Shown: positions 49,209 to 55,593 of the stretch, in pieces
Layout: every line of letters begins with the position of its first letter
Numbering within the stretch: position 1 is the stretch's first letter
Assembly (NCBI GenBank): GCA_037200525.1
Contig: JBBCGG010000001.1
Span: 3,526,501 to 3,590,500, forward strand
Length of the DNA stretch: 64,000 nt
From: Methylocella sp.
GTDB taxonomy: Bacteria > Pseudomonadota > Alphaproteobacteria > Rhizobiales > Beijerinckiaceae
Direction of reading: 5' to 3'
The notes under the pieces: model-generated
Database searches by the model: none
Seen by the model: only the letters and a program-made list of their open reading frames with translations
What the model was told of the DNA's origin: nothing
Position numbers and translations under genes: made by a program

Positions 49209-50003
49209 TCAGGCGTTCGTCAAGTTTCGCGGTTTCTCCTTGGTGGGTTTGGCGGGCTTCGCCGAGCTGTTTTTGAAGCGGAAGCTGTCATTTCCGGTCT
49301 CAACGATGTGGCGGCGATGGGTGAGGCGGTCGAGCAGCGCCGTCGTCATCTTGGGATCGCCGAACACGGTCGCCCATTCGCCGAAGCTTAGGTTCGTCGT
49401 GATGATGACGCTGGTTCGCTCGTAGAGCTTGCTCAAGAGATGGAAGAGCAGCGCTCCACCGGAGGCGCTGAACGGCAGGTAGCCAAGCTCATCAAGGATG
49501 ACGAGGTCGGAATAGGCGAGCCGCCCTGCGATCTGGCCAGCTTTCGCTTGGCTCTTCTCGTGCTCGAGGGCGTTGACGAGTTCGACGGTGGAGAAGAACC
49601 GGATGCGCTTTCGGTGATGTTCGATGGCCTGGACGCCGATGGCCGTGGCGAGATGCGTTTTGCCCGTGCCTGGGCCGCCGACCAGGACGACGTTGTGCGC
49701 GTCCTCGAGAAACTCGCAGCGGTGAAGCTGGCGGACGAGCGCCTCGTTGACCTCGCTGCTGGCGAAGTCGAAGCCGGCAAGGTCACGGTAGTTCGGGAAG
49801 CGGGCCGCCTTCAATTGGTAGGCCGTCGACCGCACCTCCCTGTCGGCGGTCTCCGCCTTCAGGAGTTGCGACAGGATCGGCAGAGCGGCCTCGAAGGCGG
49901 GAGAGCCTTGCTCGGTCAGTTCGCCGACCGCTTGAGCCATGCCGTGCATCTTGAGAGCCCGCAGCATGATGACGACGGCGCCGGCGGCGGGATTATGACG
50001 CAT
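49209..50003 (-). CDS. istB: IstB-like ATPase of IS21
   Basis: 264 residues. AAA+ ATPase related to Dna[21 protein letters not shown] (Walker A), [20 protein letters not shown] (Walker B), [20 protein letters not shown]. Works with IstA in target selection. Overlaps the istA end by 11 bases. Confidence 0.95.
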
Positions 50004-51571
50004 GACGCGCCTCCCGGGTCTTGCGCAGAGCGTCGTAGCGCTCGACGTTGGCTTGCGGCTCGGTGGTCAAGGTCAAAGCCTGCGGAGCCTTTATTGGAGG
50101 CGTGTCCATGGGCTTTCCGTCGACCAGCCTGTGGAGCAGGTTCAGAATATGTGTCTTGGTCGGCGCGCCAGCCTCCAGCGCCAGTTCGACAGCCGTGAGC
50201 ACGGCTTGCTCGTCGTGCTGGAGAACCAAGGCTAGAATCTCGACCATCTCGCGGTCGCCGCCCGGCGTCTTGAGCAGGCGCTGTTGCAAAGCCCGGAAGG
50301 CAGGCGGCAGTTCGGCGAAGGGCGCGCCGTTACGCAAGGCTCCGGGCTTGCGCTGTATGACCGCGAGATAATGCCGCCAATCGAAAACGGTCGCCGTGGT
50401 CTTGCGTTCGTGGGAGCGGGCGAAGACGCGGGCGTGCTCGCAGACGATCTGCCCTTCGGCAGCGACGACGATACGCTCGGGATAGACCCGCACGCTGACC
50501 GGGCGATTGGCGAAGGACGCCGGCACGCTGTAGCGATTGCGGTCGAGATGGACCAGGCACGTCGGCGAGACGCGCTTGGCGTATTCGACGAAACCGTCAA
50601 ACGGCCTCGGAAGCTGCATCAGATGCCGCGTCTCTTCGGCCCAGGCGTCGGCTACCGAGCCCGCCTGCGAGTTGTGCGCCGTTTGCGCCCACAGTTCCCG
50701 GCAGCGCGTCTCCAGCCAATTGTTCAGCGCCGCCAGGGAGGGAAAGCTGGGCGTCGGTTGCCAAAGCCGATGGCGGGCGTCCTGGACGTCCTTTTCGATT
50801 TGACCTCCGCCCGCCATCCAACATGCTTCGCATGCCGGACCCTTGGCGGGCTCCGCCTTTCTCCCACCCGGACGCCGGATTGCAGAACCCGGCCTCGAAC
50901 AGGAAGTGACTGACCATGGCTAAGAAGCGGGCGTTGACCTTGCGCTCCTTGCCGCGTCCGATCTTATCGACGGCGGTTCGCATATTGTCGTAGATGCCGC
51001 GCCGCGGCACGCCGCCCAGGACGCGGAAGGCGTGATTATGCGCGTCGAACAGGATCTCATGGGTCTGTTGCGGATAGGCGCGGAGAAAGAAAGCGCGGCT
51101 ATAGCTGAGCTTGAAGTGAGCGACCTGGAGCTTGGTCCGCTCGCCCGCGATGACCGCCCAGTCCTCTGACCAATCGAACTGGAACGCCTCACCGGCCATG
51201 AACGCAAGGGGCACGAAGACGCCGCGGCCCGTGGTCTTTTGCTCTCGCTGTCGGGCGTCCTTCCAATCCCGCGCGAAAGCCGCCACGCGATTGTAGGATC
51301 CGTCGTAGCCCAGCGCCGCCAGATCGGCGTGCAACTGCTTGATCGTGCGCTTCTGCTTGCGCGACTTCCCTGCCTCCTGTCGCAGCATATGCGACAGCTT
51401 GTCGGCGTAGGGGTCCAGCCCGCTCGGCCGCTCAGGAAGATTAAACTTGGGCTCGATGCTGTCAGAGCGCAGGTACTTGCGCACCGTGTTCCGCGACAGA
51501 CCTGTGCGCCGCGATATCTCTCGGATCGAAAAATGATCCCGATAATGCCAGCGCCGGATGACGCTCAATAA
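49993..51571 (-). pseudogene. istA: IstA transposase of IS21, frame broken by 52-bp hairpin insertion
   Basis: N-terminal frame (start MELLSVIRRWHYRDHFSIRE near 51577): HTH, FQFDWSEDWAVI with the first Asp, GIYDNMRTAVDKI with the second, up to CNPASGWEKG. The second frame continues GQIEKDVQDARHRLWQPTPS with the catalytic Glu, then YSVPASFANRPVSVRVYPER to the stop at 49993. Deleting 50804-50855 restores WEKG-QIEKDV in one frame. The insertion length (52) shifts the frame by one. Confidence 0.9.
50804..50855 (-). repeat. Palindromic mini-insertion, copy 1 (in istA)
   Basis: 52 nt between GAGAAAGG and TCAAATCGAA on the minus strand. Starts CGGAG and ends GCGGAGG. Outer stem GCCCGCCA/TGGCGGGC (8 bp), purine bulge AGGG, inner stem TCCGGCATGC/GCATGTTGGA (10 bp, two G-T pairs), loop GAA, so the apex is GCGAAGC. 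Placed in the Gly codon just before Gln-Ile-Glu, Glu being catalytic. Same architecture and boundaries as 53610-53663. Confidence 0.85.
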
Positions 51572-51830
51572 CTCCATGTCGATCACTCCATCGCCCCCCC
51601 CGGCCACGCCAAAGGGGTAAGGTTCGAACATGGGTCAGTTCTCGGCGGAAAAACCCGCGCTGCCTGGGTCAGTTCTCAGTGGAAATCAACAGACCGCCGC
51701 GGCCGTAAAAGCGATATGTCCGATTTTTGCAATTCGTCAGCTGCCTTTTCCAGCAAGTTCTACCTACAGACGCGATCTGCGGTCAGGACCTGTTGCCCGC
51801 GGCTGCATCTAAACTGCTACGGAGACATCT

Positions 51831-52391
51831 ATGCCACGCATTGCGCTGTACACTTTCGGCGTTCTAAAAGCCTTCACCGGATCGTCGATGCTGACCGACT
51901 TCGTCGCCGCCGCTCCATTGGTGTTTGCGGAGGCCGCGACAGTCGATGGATTCATCGCCCATGCGGGTGCCGCTCGTCCTGACTTGGCCGGGAAAGCGAA
52001 GTTGGGAAAAGACTTTGGCGCTTGGGGTACTGCTGTCGCCCCCCGCTTTTACAAAGCCTCGACGAAGCCAGGCGAAGATACCATGATAACAACGCTGTCG
52101 CTGTGGCGCGACATCGGGACGGCCCGACGATTTACGTACGGCGGTTTACACCACGCCGCCTTGAGGCGGCGCAGCGACTGGTTCCAAAAACCCGAGTGGC
52201 CAGGCTACGTGCTGTGGTGGGTTGCCGAAGACAAAACCCCCACTTGGACCGAGGGCGCACGCAAGCTTGAAGCGCTCGATGACGACGGGCCAACCAGTTT
52301 GGGCTTTAATTTCACAACATGCTTCGATTGGGCGGGACGGAAAATCGAGCCCGTTCCAAGCAACGAACGCAGGCGAAGTGCGGAGGCATGA
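51831..52391 (+). CDS. DUF3291 domain protein
   Basis: 186 residues, GGAG before the ATG. DUF3291-type layout: MPRIALYTFGVLKAFTGSSM, APRFYKASTKPGEDTMITTL, SLWRDIGTARRFTYGGLHHA and WPGYVLWWVAEDKTPTWTEG. The fold is related to small antibiotic-monooxygenase-like ferredoxin-fold proteins; function unknown. Intact despite surrounding decay. Confidence 0.82.
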   Translation: MPRIALYTFGVLKAFTGSSMLTDFVAAAPLVFAEAATVDGFIAHAGAARPDLAGKAKLGKDFGAWGTAVAPRFYKASTKPGEDTMITTLSLWRDIGTARRFTYGGLHHAALRRRSDWFQKPEWPGYVLWWVAEDKTPTWTEGARKLEALDDDGPTSLGFNFTTCFDWAGRKIEPVPSNERRRSAEA

Positions 52392-52443
52392 ATTTTCTAC
52401 GTGCTCCAGTCGCCAATATGACAACACCTTGTCGGAGGCCAAA

Positions 52444-53106
52444 ATGAAGGCATGGATTATAGGCCTAAGGATCGCCTCGATATTCCTTTACGGCCTTATC
52501 CGTGGCCTGCTGCGCAACTTTGGGCTCAAGGTTGGCGTCGTCGGTTTGATCGAATTCGAGGAACGGATTGTCGAACTTGTCGAAGGCATGCCAGACCTTG
52601 CGGAGATCATGGCGTCTTTGCTTGACGCTCGTCGCACGCTCCGCGAGCAGGTCGCGAAGCTGCACCGAAAGCTGTTGTCGATCGTCCGCGAAGATGACGT
52701 GTGCCGGCGATTGATGACGATCCCGGGCGTCGGCCCGATCGTCTCCTTGGCTTTCACCGCGACCATCGACATACCGGCTCGCTTCAAGAGTTCTAAGGCT
52801 GTCGGGCCGGCTTTGGGATTGACGCCGATCCTCAATCAATCGGGTGAAAGCAATCGCGTTGGTCGGATCTCGCAGTGCGGCGACGGTATGATGCGAACGC
52901 TGCTCTATGAAGCGGCTCAAGTCATGCTGACGCGCACAACCAAATGGTCGTGGTTGAAGGCCTGGGCGATGAATGTCGCCAAAAGACGTGGCAAGCAAAA
53001 AGCCATCGTCGCCCTGGCGCGCCGGCTGGCCGTGATCTTGCACCGCATGTGGAGCGATGGGACGGAGTTCCGCTGGACGAAGGAAAACGCGCTGGCGGCA
53101 GGCTAA
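52444..53106 (+). pseudogene. IS110-family transposase, N-terminally truncated
   Basis: Readable from MKAWIIGLRIASIFLYGLIR to KENALAAG. The C-terminal transposase_20 domain is present: RRLMTIPGVGPIVSLAFTAT, VGPALGLTPILNQSGESNRV, GRISQCGDGMMRTLLYEAAQ with the catalytic Ser region. The N-terminal DEDD domain is missing. The longer open frame starting at 52222 is a chance extension antiparallel to nothing and overlapping the DUF3291 gene. Confidence 0.85.
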
Positions 53107-53375
53107 CGATGTTCAAGACATCGAGGCCCCGAAAAGTAGAATAATCGAGATCCGCCTTCTGGCGGAGAAATGTCCTTCGCGGGACGACGGATGAAATGAG
53201 TGCGTGCCGGGACTCGTATCGATCGTGGCGACGCGGTGAGAACGCTGTTTAGATTGCTCCATTCATCCTCCTGATCCTATATTGGGAAAGCCGAAGAGCT
53301 GATCCCGAAGAGAAGCGCGGACCCGCGAGCGACTACCGACAAACGGAAAAGCACACAGCTCGAAGATGCTTGACA
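53107..53375. other. Intergenic between IS remnants, no gene seen
   Basis: About 270 bases, no recognised frame; probably IS end sequences of the IS110 and IS481 remnants. Confidence 0.3.
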
Positions 53376-54406
53376 TCAACCCGCCGAATAGAGAAGTCCC
53401 GGCATTTGATGGATTGGATCGAGTTTGAATCGTTCTGGTTCGATTGTCCATCTTTTGCAGATGAACTCGTAGGGCGTGAGGCCTTTTAGGGTCTTCAGTC
53501 GCCGGCCGAAATTGTAGGCGCTGACGAAGTCGAGATGCCTGCTGAGCTGATCATGTGGCAGCGTTTGACAGTCGCGCCCTTGATGGTTCGGTTCATCCGT
53601 TCGACCTGACCTCCGCTGGCTTCTCCAACGAGCTTCGCTCGCCGGAGCCTCAAGCCAGCTCCGCCGTTCGTCCACGGATGGTTGATCTTGGTGAAGCGGT
53701 GCTCGATGCCGTTCTCGCGGCAGCGCATGGTGAACATGTGCGTCATGTAGCGAGCGGTCGGGCCGTCGGCGTATCGTGGGGCGTAACGGAACTGGATGCC
53801 GTTGTCGGTCAGGATCGTGTGGATCTTGTACGGCGCGGCTGCGATCAGGGCGACCAGGAAGGCTGAAGCCGTGACCCGGTTCGCGCTCTTCACCAGTTGC
53901 ACGAAGGCGAATTTGCTTGTCCGATCAATGGCGACGAACAAATAGAGTTTCCCCTCGGCGGTCTGAACCTCGGCGATGTCAATGTGGAAGAAGCCGATCG
54001 GATAGGACTTGAACCTCTTCTTTGGCTCCTTGTCGCCCTCGATATCCGGCAGCCGCCCGATCCCATGCCGCTGCAGACACCGGTGCAGCGACGAGCGAGT
54101 CAGGCGGGGGATGGTGGCCTGCAGCGCATAAAGGCAATCGTCGAGAGGAAGCAACGTATGCTTTCGGAAAGCGACGATGATCGCCTCCTCCTCAATCGAG
54201 AGGACCGTCGACTTTGGTTCTTTCGGACCGGTCCGCAGATCGGCCGCCGAGGTCCGCTTCCTCCATTTGGCGACGGTCTTCTGGTTGATCCCGTAGCGCT
54301 TGGCCAGGGCCCTCAGGCTTTCTTCACTATGCTGTATCGCTCGACGCACCGCCGCTGTCGTGGTGGCGCTCCCGTGCAAAATCTGGCCCATAGCGCATCC
54401 TTCCAT
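53376..54406 (-). pseudogene. IS481-family transposase with in-frame hairpin insertion and later frameshift
   Basis: Starts MGQILHGSATTTAAVRRAIQ (HTH), then FFHIDIAEVQTAEGKLYLFV (first Asp), HTILTDNGIQFRYAPR (second Asp), IEHRFTKINHPWTN. An 18-codon insertion (53610-53663) follows, then GQVERMNRTIKGATVKRCH with the catalytic Glu. A small deletion near 53560 shifts to the frame HLDFVSAYNFGRRLKTLKGL, TPYEFICKRW, ending at 53376. Two separate lesions, so inactive as read. Confidence 0.88.
53610..53663 (-). repeat. Palindromic mini-insertion, copy 2 (in IS481 transposase)
   Basis: 54 nt between ACGAACGG and TCAGGTCGAA on the minus strand. Starts CGGAG and ends GCGGAGG. Outer stem GCTGGCTT/AAGCCAGC (8 bp), purine-rich bulge GAGGC, inner stem TCCGGCGAGC/GCTCGTTGGA (10 bp, same two G-T pairs), loop GAA, apex GCGAAGC. 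No stop codon in the translated frame, adding 18 residues before Gln-Val-Glu. Confidence 0.85.
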
Positions 54407-54512
54407 TTCGAGGAAAATAATGCACCATCAAAGCCCGGGATCAAACAACTAGGCTCAGGACCTATTAATTTCTTTTAATCTATGATTCACAGTCTCCTGT
54501 GAGGAGGCTTTG

Positions 54513-54936
54513 ATGGGTGATTTGTTTCTGTTGAGCGCGCGCCAGATTGCGCGAATTTCACCGCATTTTCCACTTTCGCATGGCGCGCCGCGGGTCGATG
54601 ATCGACGAGTTGTGAGCGGGATTGTCTATATGATCCGTTACGGCCTGCAATGGAAAGACGCTCCAAAAGGGTATGGTCCACACAAGACGCTCTACAACCG
54701 CTTCATGCGTTGGAGCCGATTGGGCGTGTTCGACCGGATCTTCGCCGCGCTGGCCGGCGAAGGGCCAAAGCCTGAGCGGATCATGATCGACGCCACCCAT
54801 CTGAAGGCCCACCGCACGGCGGCAAGCCTTCTTAAAAAGGGGATGTTCCCCGTCGTATCGGGCGCACGAAAGGCGGCTTGAACTCCAAGCTCCACGCCGT
54901 CTGCGACGAAGCCGGAAAACCGATCATCCTGCTGCT
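54513..54936 (+). pseudogene. IS5-family transposase, N-terminal half
   Basis: MGDLFLLSARQIARISPHFP ... IDATHLKAHRTAASLLKKGM, then second-frame LNSKLHAVCDEAGKPIILLL. Interrupted at the TAG where the defective IS copy begins. Confidence 0.85.
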
Positions 54937-55593
54937 TAGGACCTGTTGACGAATAGTATTCCCATCGTGGCAAGGATCTGATTCAAGGTCGCTTTCGCAA
55001 CCGGCAGTTCCGGCGCTGGACGCTCGCCGGATTATGGGAACTCTTTCTAGACGCCCTGAACGAGACCGAGGGCGTCGGCGAGAGCGTTCAGATGATCGAC
55101 TCGACCGTTGTCCGGGCGCATCACTGCGCAGCCGGCGCTAAAGGGGGACTCCGCGTCAGGGTCTTGACGCTCAAGAGGTGGCTTCACGACAAAAATTCAC
55201 CTCCGCACGAACGGCGAAGGATTGCCGATAGCCGCCGATATTACCGCAGGCGAAGTCTCTGATTATTCGGGCTTTGATCCATTGATGGAAGCGGACGGCC
55301 CGGAGCCCAAAGTCATGCTTGCCGATCGCGGCTATGATTCTGATCATATTCGCAAAACATTGGAGGAAAAGGGTGCGGCGGCGGTCATTCCATCACGCAG
55401 AAACCGCAAGGTCCAGATCCCGGTCGATGGCCACATCTACGCCCTGCGCAACCGCATCGAACGCTGCTTCAACAAGCTCAAGAACGCACGAAGGCTGGCG
55501 ACCAGATACGACAAAACCGCAGCCAGCTATCTCGCTTTCGTCCACATCGCCGCGATCCGCCTATCGACCCGCGCATTTGTCAACAAGACCTAG
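54937..55593 (+). mobile_element. Defective IS5-family element, left copy
   Basis: Ends TAGGACCTGTTGAC and, inverted, TAGGTCTTGTTGAC; 657 bases, shorter than a complete element. The transposase start is missing and the middle has frameshifts: QMIDSTVVRAHHCAAGAKGG in one frame, then MPIAADITAGEVSDYSGFDP to NKT in another (55222-55593). Identical to the copy at 62368-63024. Confidence 0.9.

Follow-up and report, generated by a model that had tools for sequence, protein, structure and literature searches.

Two hairpin insertions in transposase genes

Two unrelated transposase genes in the genome of Methylocella sp., one of the IS21 and one of the IS481 type, each carry a short palindromic insert. 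The locus raises the question of whether these inserts are copies of one mobile element and of how it came to lie in such genes. The stretch analyzed (hereafter the window) comprises 64,000 nt, i.e. positions 3,526,501-3,590,500 of contig JBBCGG010000001.1 in assembly GCA_037200525.1 (labeled G000). The two inserts probably represent one family of short non-autonomous mobile DNA hairpins with a canonical length of 54 nt net, found in the alphaproteobacterial family to which Lichenifustis belongs and residing mainly within insertion sequences (IS). Precise presence or absence of the hairpin at single sites in closely related IS copies shows that it is mobile, by gain or by precise loss, and it is strongly over-represented in transposase genes.

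50804-50855, plus strand: hairpin element copy 1, 52 nt; model footprint 50803-50858; antisense within IS21 istA, out of frame
53610-53663, plus strand: hairpin element copy 2, 54 nt; model footprint 53609-53666; antisense within the IS481 transposase gene, in frame

Both inserts were confirmed at these positions with the lengths given by an earlier model-made annotation of the locus (the sequence-only reading); on the minus strand, they start with CGGAG and end with GCGGAGG.

Filled and empty sites

The strongest single result was obtained from the same genome and brings the evidence for mobility close to direct. Outside the element, an empty IS481 homologue (L106, G000:C1:4767001-4767970) and the window IS481 shared 965 of 967 aligned bases; besides one 3-nt indel elsewhere, the homologue lacked exactly 54 nt. 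At the junction, L106 has CTGACCGTTC where the window IS481 reads CTGACC-TCC...CTCCG-CCGTTC. L033 and L040, IS481 copies that are close relatives and carry different elements, formed a reciprocal pair: at the site next to the catalytic glutamate codon (Glu site), L033 is filled, and at a site near the N-terminus it is empty, whereas L040 shows the opposite arrangement (flanks 93-99% identical). Filled/empty pairs were also detected in IS21 (versus G172), IS3, IS1380, and IS66, the difference being 54 nt (52 nt for L039 and L071_1335), with flank identities of about 70-90% for some of them. Rows set aside were L044_1501 and L071_967 versus L018, in which the left flank aligns within another element, as well as the doubtful L067 and L069 (75-81% flanks).

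Uninterrupted relatives, which the sequence-only reading had proposed as a comparison, lacked the extra residues in all aligned cases (IS481: L106, L090, L091, and L092, 4/4; IS21: L120, L131, L122, L123, and L142, 5/5). In the plasmid collection, 167 records matched; among the 10 matches listed, the best was split into two pieces that fall under an annotated istA and an annotated istB, and in six of the 10 the alignment pieces stopped at window 50793-50806, the edge of the insert.

Ancient inserts that spread only together with their host IS could in principle account for part of these patterns: all three IS21 copies carry the element, and some same-site copies in related IS look inherited. 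In L160/L177 and L159/L174, element and flanks have diverged together, which indicates that old insertions persist too. A lack of independent mobility is, however, contradicted by the empty sites within one genome and by about 70 different sites in many IS families. It is also opposed by the IS481 Glu site, where elements are more conserved than their flanks. Between L033 and L035, the element was identical at 56 of 56 bases, whereas the 150-nt flanks agreed in 95 of 164 and 102 of 155 aligned columns; over three source-genome lineages with strongly diverged flanks, 55-56 of 56 element bases were identical. Separate recent insertions explain this more easily than inheritance does, and spread with the host IS alone appears hardly credible.

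Copies and host range

The sequence-only reading had suggested searching for further copies by covariance model, and such copies were found at about 70 sites. Of three models, R1 (flanks included) was left unused and was replaced by R2, built from ten sequences, and R3. Within the source genome, a 23-base core occurred seven times at up to one mismatch (reversed control: 0), and the covariance model recovered nine copies: IS21 istA holds three identical ones, and the others are in IS481, four of them at one codon and two near the N-terminus. Across the family of the source organism, 57 matches were found in 20 of 397 genomes at E-values up to 1e-4. This is a lower bound, since filters were strict and at most 14 candidates were scored per genome. 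Rescoring the 20 carrier genomes with the later model yielded 87 matches, 43 of them in one Lichenifustis genome (G133). Under the same strict filters, the hairpin was carried by 2 of 397 genomes in a sample of the order and by 1 of 385 in a sample of the class, G000 being included in both.

Beyond these samples, two copies lay on one contig of Rhodospirillales, and one plasmid of Methylocapsa and one viral contig carried the element as well; the viral copy (L031) lies within a frame with a transposase HTH domain. The Methylocapsa record was the single carrier in the plasmid search, in which another variant of the pattern gave no match. An exact search for the core pattern in a contig collection returned nine stretches, of which three from Lichenifustis and one from Rhodospirillales possess the full architecture. 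Core matches in Planctomycetales, Arthrobacter, Rhodobiaceae, and Vitreoscilla lack the ends and the outer stem and were rejected by eye as chance; a weak match in Methylobacterium (L024) was removed from the counts. As far as sampled, the hairpin family is narrow in its hosts.

For the site counts, 66 of 70 matches were kept after removal of four same-place repeats, and 24 rows were added; without L024, 89 of these 90 remained. They formed 73 clusters, reduced to 70 by merging the same-site pairs L072/L073_20, L040/L041, and L082/L083. Judged by eye, related IS may still contribute homologous sites among the remaining clusters (L085, L159/L174). Flank and motif statistics refer to the 69 clusters with sufficient flank.

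Some individual copies deserve mention. The only carrier of the order sample beyond the family (G690) holds three equal-scoring copies (L180, L181, and L182) within 20 kb, which stand outside the site counts; the host of L180 looks by eye like an IS5-type transposase. In Lichenifustis, a single IS3-type gene (L071, 967-1558) contains four elements over roughly 600 bp; three measure 54 nt net and the fourth 52 nt net. L044 (2688-2749) and L168 (1501-1558) represent one site with the same element in a 62-nt and a 58-nt form, the extra bases lying in the stem region; thus, the hairpin can change length in place.

Architecture and covariation of the hairpin

The fold given by the sequence-only reading was recovered as far as the 8-bp outer stem, the 4-nt purine bulge, two G.T pairs, and the GAA loop are concerned. 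Its uniform 10-bp inner stem was not: this stem has 10 bp in copy 1 (52 nt) and 11 bp in copy 2 (54 nt). The six shared stem pairs that differ between the window copies all remain paired (6/6, by eye), in agreement with the compensatory changes described there. Single-strand folding gave one bulged hairpin for either copy, and equal stability was reached in none of 200 shuffles (z = −4.81 and −4.85 for RNA; −4.45 to −4.97 for DNA over both strands). As DNA, the minus strand of both copies folds at −18.0 kcal/mol versus −15.6 kcal/mol for the other strand. No Rfam family matched window 50000-54500 at E-values up to 1.

Across the family, the footprint opens with CCCTCCGC and a stem, continues through TCC, the two-base mismatch zone, and a stem of 5 bp to the triloop, and returns along the other arm, closing with GCTCCGCCC; one side bears a 4-nt bulge. 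Its length is 58 nt (54 nt net) in 54 of 69 clusters, including sites outside genes; length is thus a property of the element and not the result of frame selection alone. The outermost bases are mostly direct repeats (CTCCGC/CTCCGC), located near both ends of most copies, those in the window included.

Covariation was first assessed in a small MAFFT alignment not fitted to the model, in which both sides of a pair had changed in 25 cases versus 6.8 in shuffles, above both controls. For 93 matches, the score was 0.524 compared with 0.167 for shuffled and at most 0.089 for slid alignments (289 versus 80 cells); this alignment was fitted to the model and leans towards structure. Wobbles made up about 20 of about 1264 paired cells; changes in the arms thus almost always preserve Watson-Crick pairing, whereas more G-U intermediates would be expected if the hairpin acted as RNA. 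Among 77 elements with a triloop, 57 read TNC, each of the four bases occurring at N, and none has GNA on the same strand (0/77); these elements are related and hence not independent. The opposite strand consequently carries GC-GNA-GC, the loop of very stable DNA mini-hairpins. An A.C mismatch (G.T on the other strand) is conserved as well (A 76/93, C 71/93). Strict Watson-Crick covariation, the one-strand GNA triloop, and the conserved mismatch point to a DNA hairpin. Taken together with the better DNA fold of the minus strand, the few wobbles, the strand of the GNA loop, and the mismatch suggest selection on one folded DNA strand.

Host genes and transposase bias

At least 43 of about 70 sites lie in transposase genes according to Pfam, NCBIfam, or leave-one-out homology. 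This hand-summed number comprises 31 sites with a transposase-type Pfam domain in an overlapping or abutting frame (L045, L069, and L165 resting on general HTH or just-under-cut-off matches), 11 leave-one-out sites, and one NCBIfam site (L064, below cut-off). Host families include IS3, IS21, IS481, IS630, IS66 (tnpB, tnpC), IS5-like DDE_Tnp_1, IS1380, IS256 (Mutator), DDE_5 (IS701-like), IS110, ISL3, and IS91; names without a family match were assigned by eye. In the leave-one-out test, 25 of 70 merged sites fell within 30 nt of transposase homology, compared with 452 of 39,780 same-size windows (1.1%) of G000 and 0 of 19,780 of G133. The library consisted of 35 host transposase frames, with each site's own loci excluded, and control DNA was 400 kb evenly spaced over G000 and 200 kb of G133 taken from large contigs only. 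A first control had given 28 of 73 unmerged clusters versus 3,295 of 400,000 bases. As IS genes are dispensable and copy themselves, the bias can follow from tolerance and amplification; a genuine preference of the element for such genes may also contribute.

Several host frames with transposase domains stay open through the insert (L050, 539 aa; L074, 445 aa; L162, 428 aa; L170, 476 aa), and in several genes one or even two inserts leave the frame uninterrupted, as in a 494-codon transposase frame of the IS1380 type. The frames at L043, L055, L051, L046, and some others matched no family above cut-off. A tblastn test of the reading frame was set aside, as it had counted queries from the same locus and scored even the 52-nt copies as in frame. 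Both orientations relative to genes occur, and some copies lie outside genes. Among the non-transposase hosts are a DnaG-like primase gene (L169) and a GGDEF/EAL gene (L176); further sites lie in intergenic palindromes or in DNA without an assignment. Copies that look intergenic are L052, L053, L056, L066, L171, L175, L178, and L179; several of them adjoin further GC-rich palindromes of the form ...CTTCTCCC...GGGAGAAG..., which might link them to wider alphaproteobacterial repeat families.

In the window, the hosts of the two copies are arranged as follows:

49233-51692, minus strand: IS21 stretch hosting copy 1; 2460 bp common to a second copy, with a 1-nt difference in a C run
49993-51631, minus strand: istA, in two overlapping frames due to the insert (51631-50597 and 50817-49993)
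49209-50003, minus strand: istB helper ATPase; the matching gene of a plasmid relative is annotated istB
53495-54406, minus strand: IS481 transposase frame that continues across the 54-nt insert and thereby gains 18 residues

By eye, the IS481 frame departs from the usual frame after ...ATVKR; the sister copy L033 has rve and rve_3 domains. Pfam rve (just below cut-off) and Mu-transpos_C_2 fall on either part of the same istA copy. Near the istA start, the C run (window 51594) is one base shorter in L184 and four longer in L185; the three IS21 copies are otherwise identical, and the change looks like slippage that would shift the reading frame. The surroundings form an IS pile-up around a small gene at 51831-52391, with IS110-like and IS5-like transposase pieces (52222-53106 and 54510-55593, by eye) adjoining the two host IS.

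The istA copies are an exception to in-frame insertion. They would be silent, too, if the hairpin were a mobile translational-bypass element, at which the ribosome hops between matching codons of the two GCGGAG (or CTCCGC) repeats. The direct repeats at the ends fit such a hop, which by hand count would leave +6 nt, in frame for both 52-nt and 54-nt inserts. Furthermore, two IS21 copies with the out-of-frame insert have 2460 bp in common, and a single base of a C run sets them apart; a DNA search of the source genome gave no intact close istA. Most copies, however, are 54 nt net and need no hop; copies lie in both orientations, and some are outside genes; and in L071_1335, a hop would by hand count leave the frame unrestored. 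The istA copies would also be explained if an IS21 that is lost or distant provided transposase in trans. Bypass as the nature of the element is therefore highly improbable. A role in bypass or splicing may be considered a mere possibility raised by the matched end repeats and the IS21 pair.

Insertion sites

The sequence-only reading had taken the inserts for a mobile structured palindrome targeting the codons for Gly-Gln ahead of the catalytic Glu. Mobility, structure, and the predominant location in transposase genes held, whereas the targeting did not: in a six-frame test, Gly-Gln-x-(Glu/Asp) was present at the junction in just 4 of 69 clusters (IS481 L033/L035, IS481 L036, IS21 L039, and L172). 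As L172 is outside any recognized transposase frame and its motif lies in a chance frame, 3 of 69 clusters have the motif in transposases. The sites thus show no preference for these codons, and the targeting claim is unsupported.

No other flank motif was detected in the 69 clusters besides the GCCC side and a weak A at the next base (32/69). Filled ends read CCC...CCC in 51 clusters, CTC...CTC in three, and ACC...CC(G/A/T) in five, with ten mixed. Empty sites of the CCC class are mostly GCCC, the 54 nt being placed ahead of the G, and fit an insertion without duplication; those of the ACC class are equally compatible with a 2-nt CC repeat. Most sites adjoin GCCC, which reads GGGC on the opposite strand, but the ACC sites deviate.

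These junctions bear on whether the hairpin is a miniature inverted-repeat transposable element (MITE) moved by a DDE transposase that recognizes its ends, as proposed for RUP and IS630-Spn1. A short non-autonomous repeat in many IS families resembles RUP, which passages of one review report from more than six IS families (PMC2229807). MITE-like movement is nevertheless improbable, given outermost bases that are mostly direct repeats rather than terminal inverted repeats and empty sites that show no clear target duplication of constant size.

Search for a moving enzyme

A repetitive extragenic palindromic (REP) element would move as a single-strand hairpin by means of a REP-associated tyrosine transposase (RAYT) or another Y1 HUH transposase of the IS200/IS605 group, with a fixed tetranucleotide and no ordinary target duplication. 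The DNA-hairpin signatures, the conserved stem mismatch, and the frequent GCCC/GGGC neighbor agree with this, and RAYT cleavage of REPs is described, in the available part of the source, as also requiring a mismatch at the loop edge (PMC3733652). The richest carrier, G133, has one Y1_Tnp gene (PF01797). This domain was found in 4 of 13 carriers searched (G133, G185, G231, and G045) and 1 of 5 non-carriers. It is, however, absent from G000 despite the 965/967 filled/empty pair in that genome, in which no intact Y1 or Y2 HUH transposase was found and Y2_Tnp is present as a fragment only; Y2_Tnp occurred in 5 of 14 carriers (four matches in G133) and 1 of 5 non-carriers. The tetranucleotide tag GTAG is likewise missing (ends: GTAG 0, CTAC 5, CGTC 6 of 71), and the hairpins are mostly within genes. 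REP/RAYT and IS200/IS605 enzymes would thus find no support in G000 and mixed support elsewhere; we regard a REP-type origin as unlikely, if less so than the MITE.

A probable mode of spread

Beyond the shared structure, the roughly 70 sites, the precise presence/absence, and the transposase over-representation that were observed, we infer how a non-autonomous mobile hairpin might spread. The element would move as a folded single DNA strand, the one with the GNA loop and the G.T pairs. An enzyme acting in trans would place it at a short GC-rich site, usually 5′ of GCCC, i.e. 3′ of GGGC on the folding strand. It would then be kept and multiplied because it sits in dispensable, self-copying hosts whose reading frame is often left open. 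The element behaves like a hyperparasite of IS, and a benefit to the host IS is needless as an assumption. A more specialized version, to which we give little credence, is a dedicated transposon hyperparasite: the 54-nt hairpin would be inserted by a trans-acting system not yet described that genuinely prefers transposase genes, and its length, open frames, and matched end repeats would keep the host transposase working, out-of-frame copies being removed or skipped at the RNA or ribosome level.

Several points weigh against mobile non-autonomous hairpins residing mainly in IS. Neither an enzyme nor an autonomous partner was found among the Y1 and Y2 HUH families searched, and gain as opposed to precise loss is not proved for any single pair. 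About 27 of about 70 sites were not counted as transposase, several of them adjoining other intergenic palindromes, and the transposase bias could be part ascertainment, given that IS copies spread and can be dispensed with. The junction rule is uneven, too: 5 of 69 filled sites start with ACC instead of CCC, none of the five having the right-hand CCC, and the CCC and ACC classes could not be reduced to one cut.

How intragenic palindromic repeats move is treated as open in the passages of reviews that were available (PMC10969869, PMC3733652, PMC2229807). This question becomes testable with filled and empty alleles that are nearly identical within a complete genome, with about 70 sites for comparison, and with structural evidence favoring one DNA strand. 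The hairpins also illustrate mobile DNA nested in mobile DNA on a 54-base scale and a source of 18-residue insertions in transposases.

Comparison with known palindromic repeats

Mitochondrial byp elements of yeasts are hairpin-forming, mobile sequences of tens of bases that lie in genes; unlike for these, there is no evidence of translational bypass for the hairpins described here. The sequence-only reading had named Rickettsia palindromic elements (RPE) as the nearest analogy, and the comparison is fair: in the portions of the literature at hand, these are short palindromic selfish repeats of alphaproteobacteria, often in frame in protein genes. They are given there as 105-146 bp or about 150 bp long and as located in metabolic or conserved genes (PMC10969869, PMC2229807), whereas the present hairpin is 54 nt long (footprint of 58 nt in 54 of 69 clusters), occurs mostly in transposases, and is found in other bacteria. 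RPE-4 and RPE-6 of R. conorii are classed among the short CGTC-REPs in the same kind of excerpt (PMC3733652). CGTC-REPs are described there as short palindromes predominating in alphaproteobacteria, some intragenic, without partner transposase genes (PMC3733652); in contrast, CGTC was seen at 6 of 71 ends here, and the bias to IS genes is strong. GTAG REPs with RAYT share the single DNA hairpin and a mismatch that matters for recognition, as far as the accessible text goes (PMC3733652), but GTAG and CTAC were found at 0 and 5 of 71 sites, and G000 has no Y1 transposase. RUP of Streptococcus pneumoniae and a 107-bp Neisseria repeat are reported, in sections of one article, as small repeats in transposase genes of several IS families (PMC2229807). 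RUP possesses, according to these sections, terminal inverted repeats, TA-containing targets, and stops in all six frames (PMC2229807), none of which applies to the hairpins.

In the parts of the open-licence literature that were available, no description of this hairpin family was found. Each compared system differs in at least one tested or reported feature. The hairpins are therefore placed outside all of them and are filed as short palindromic mobile repeats that are members of none of RPE, CGTC-REP, GTAG-REP, and RUP.

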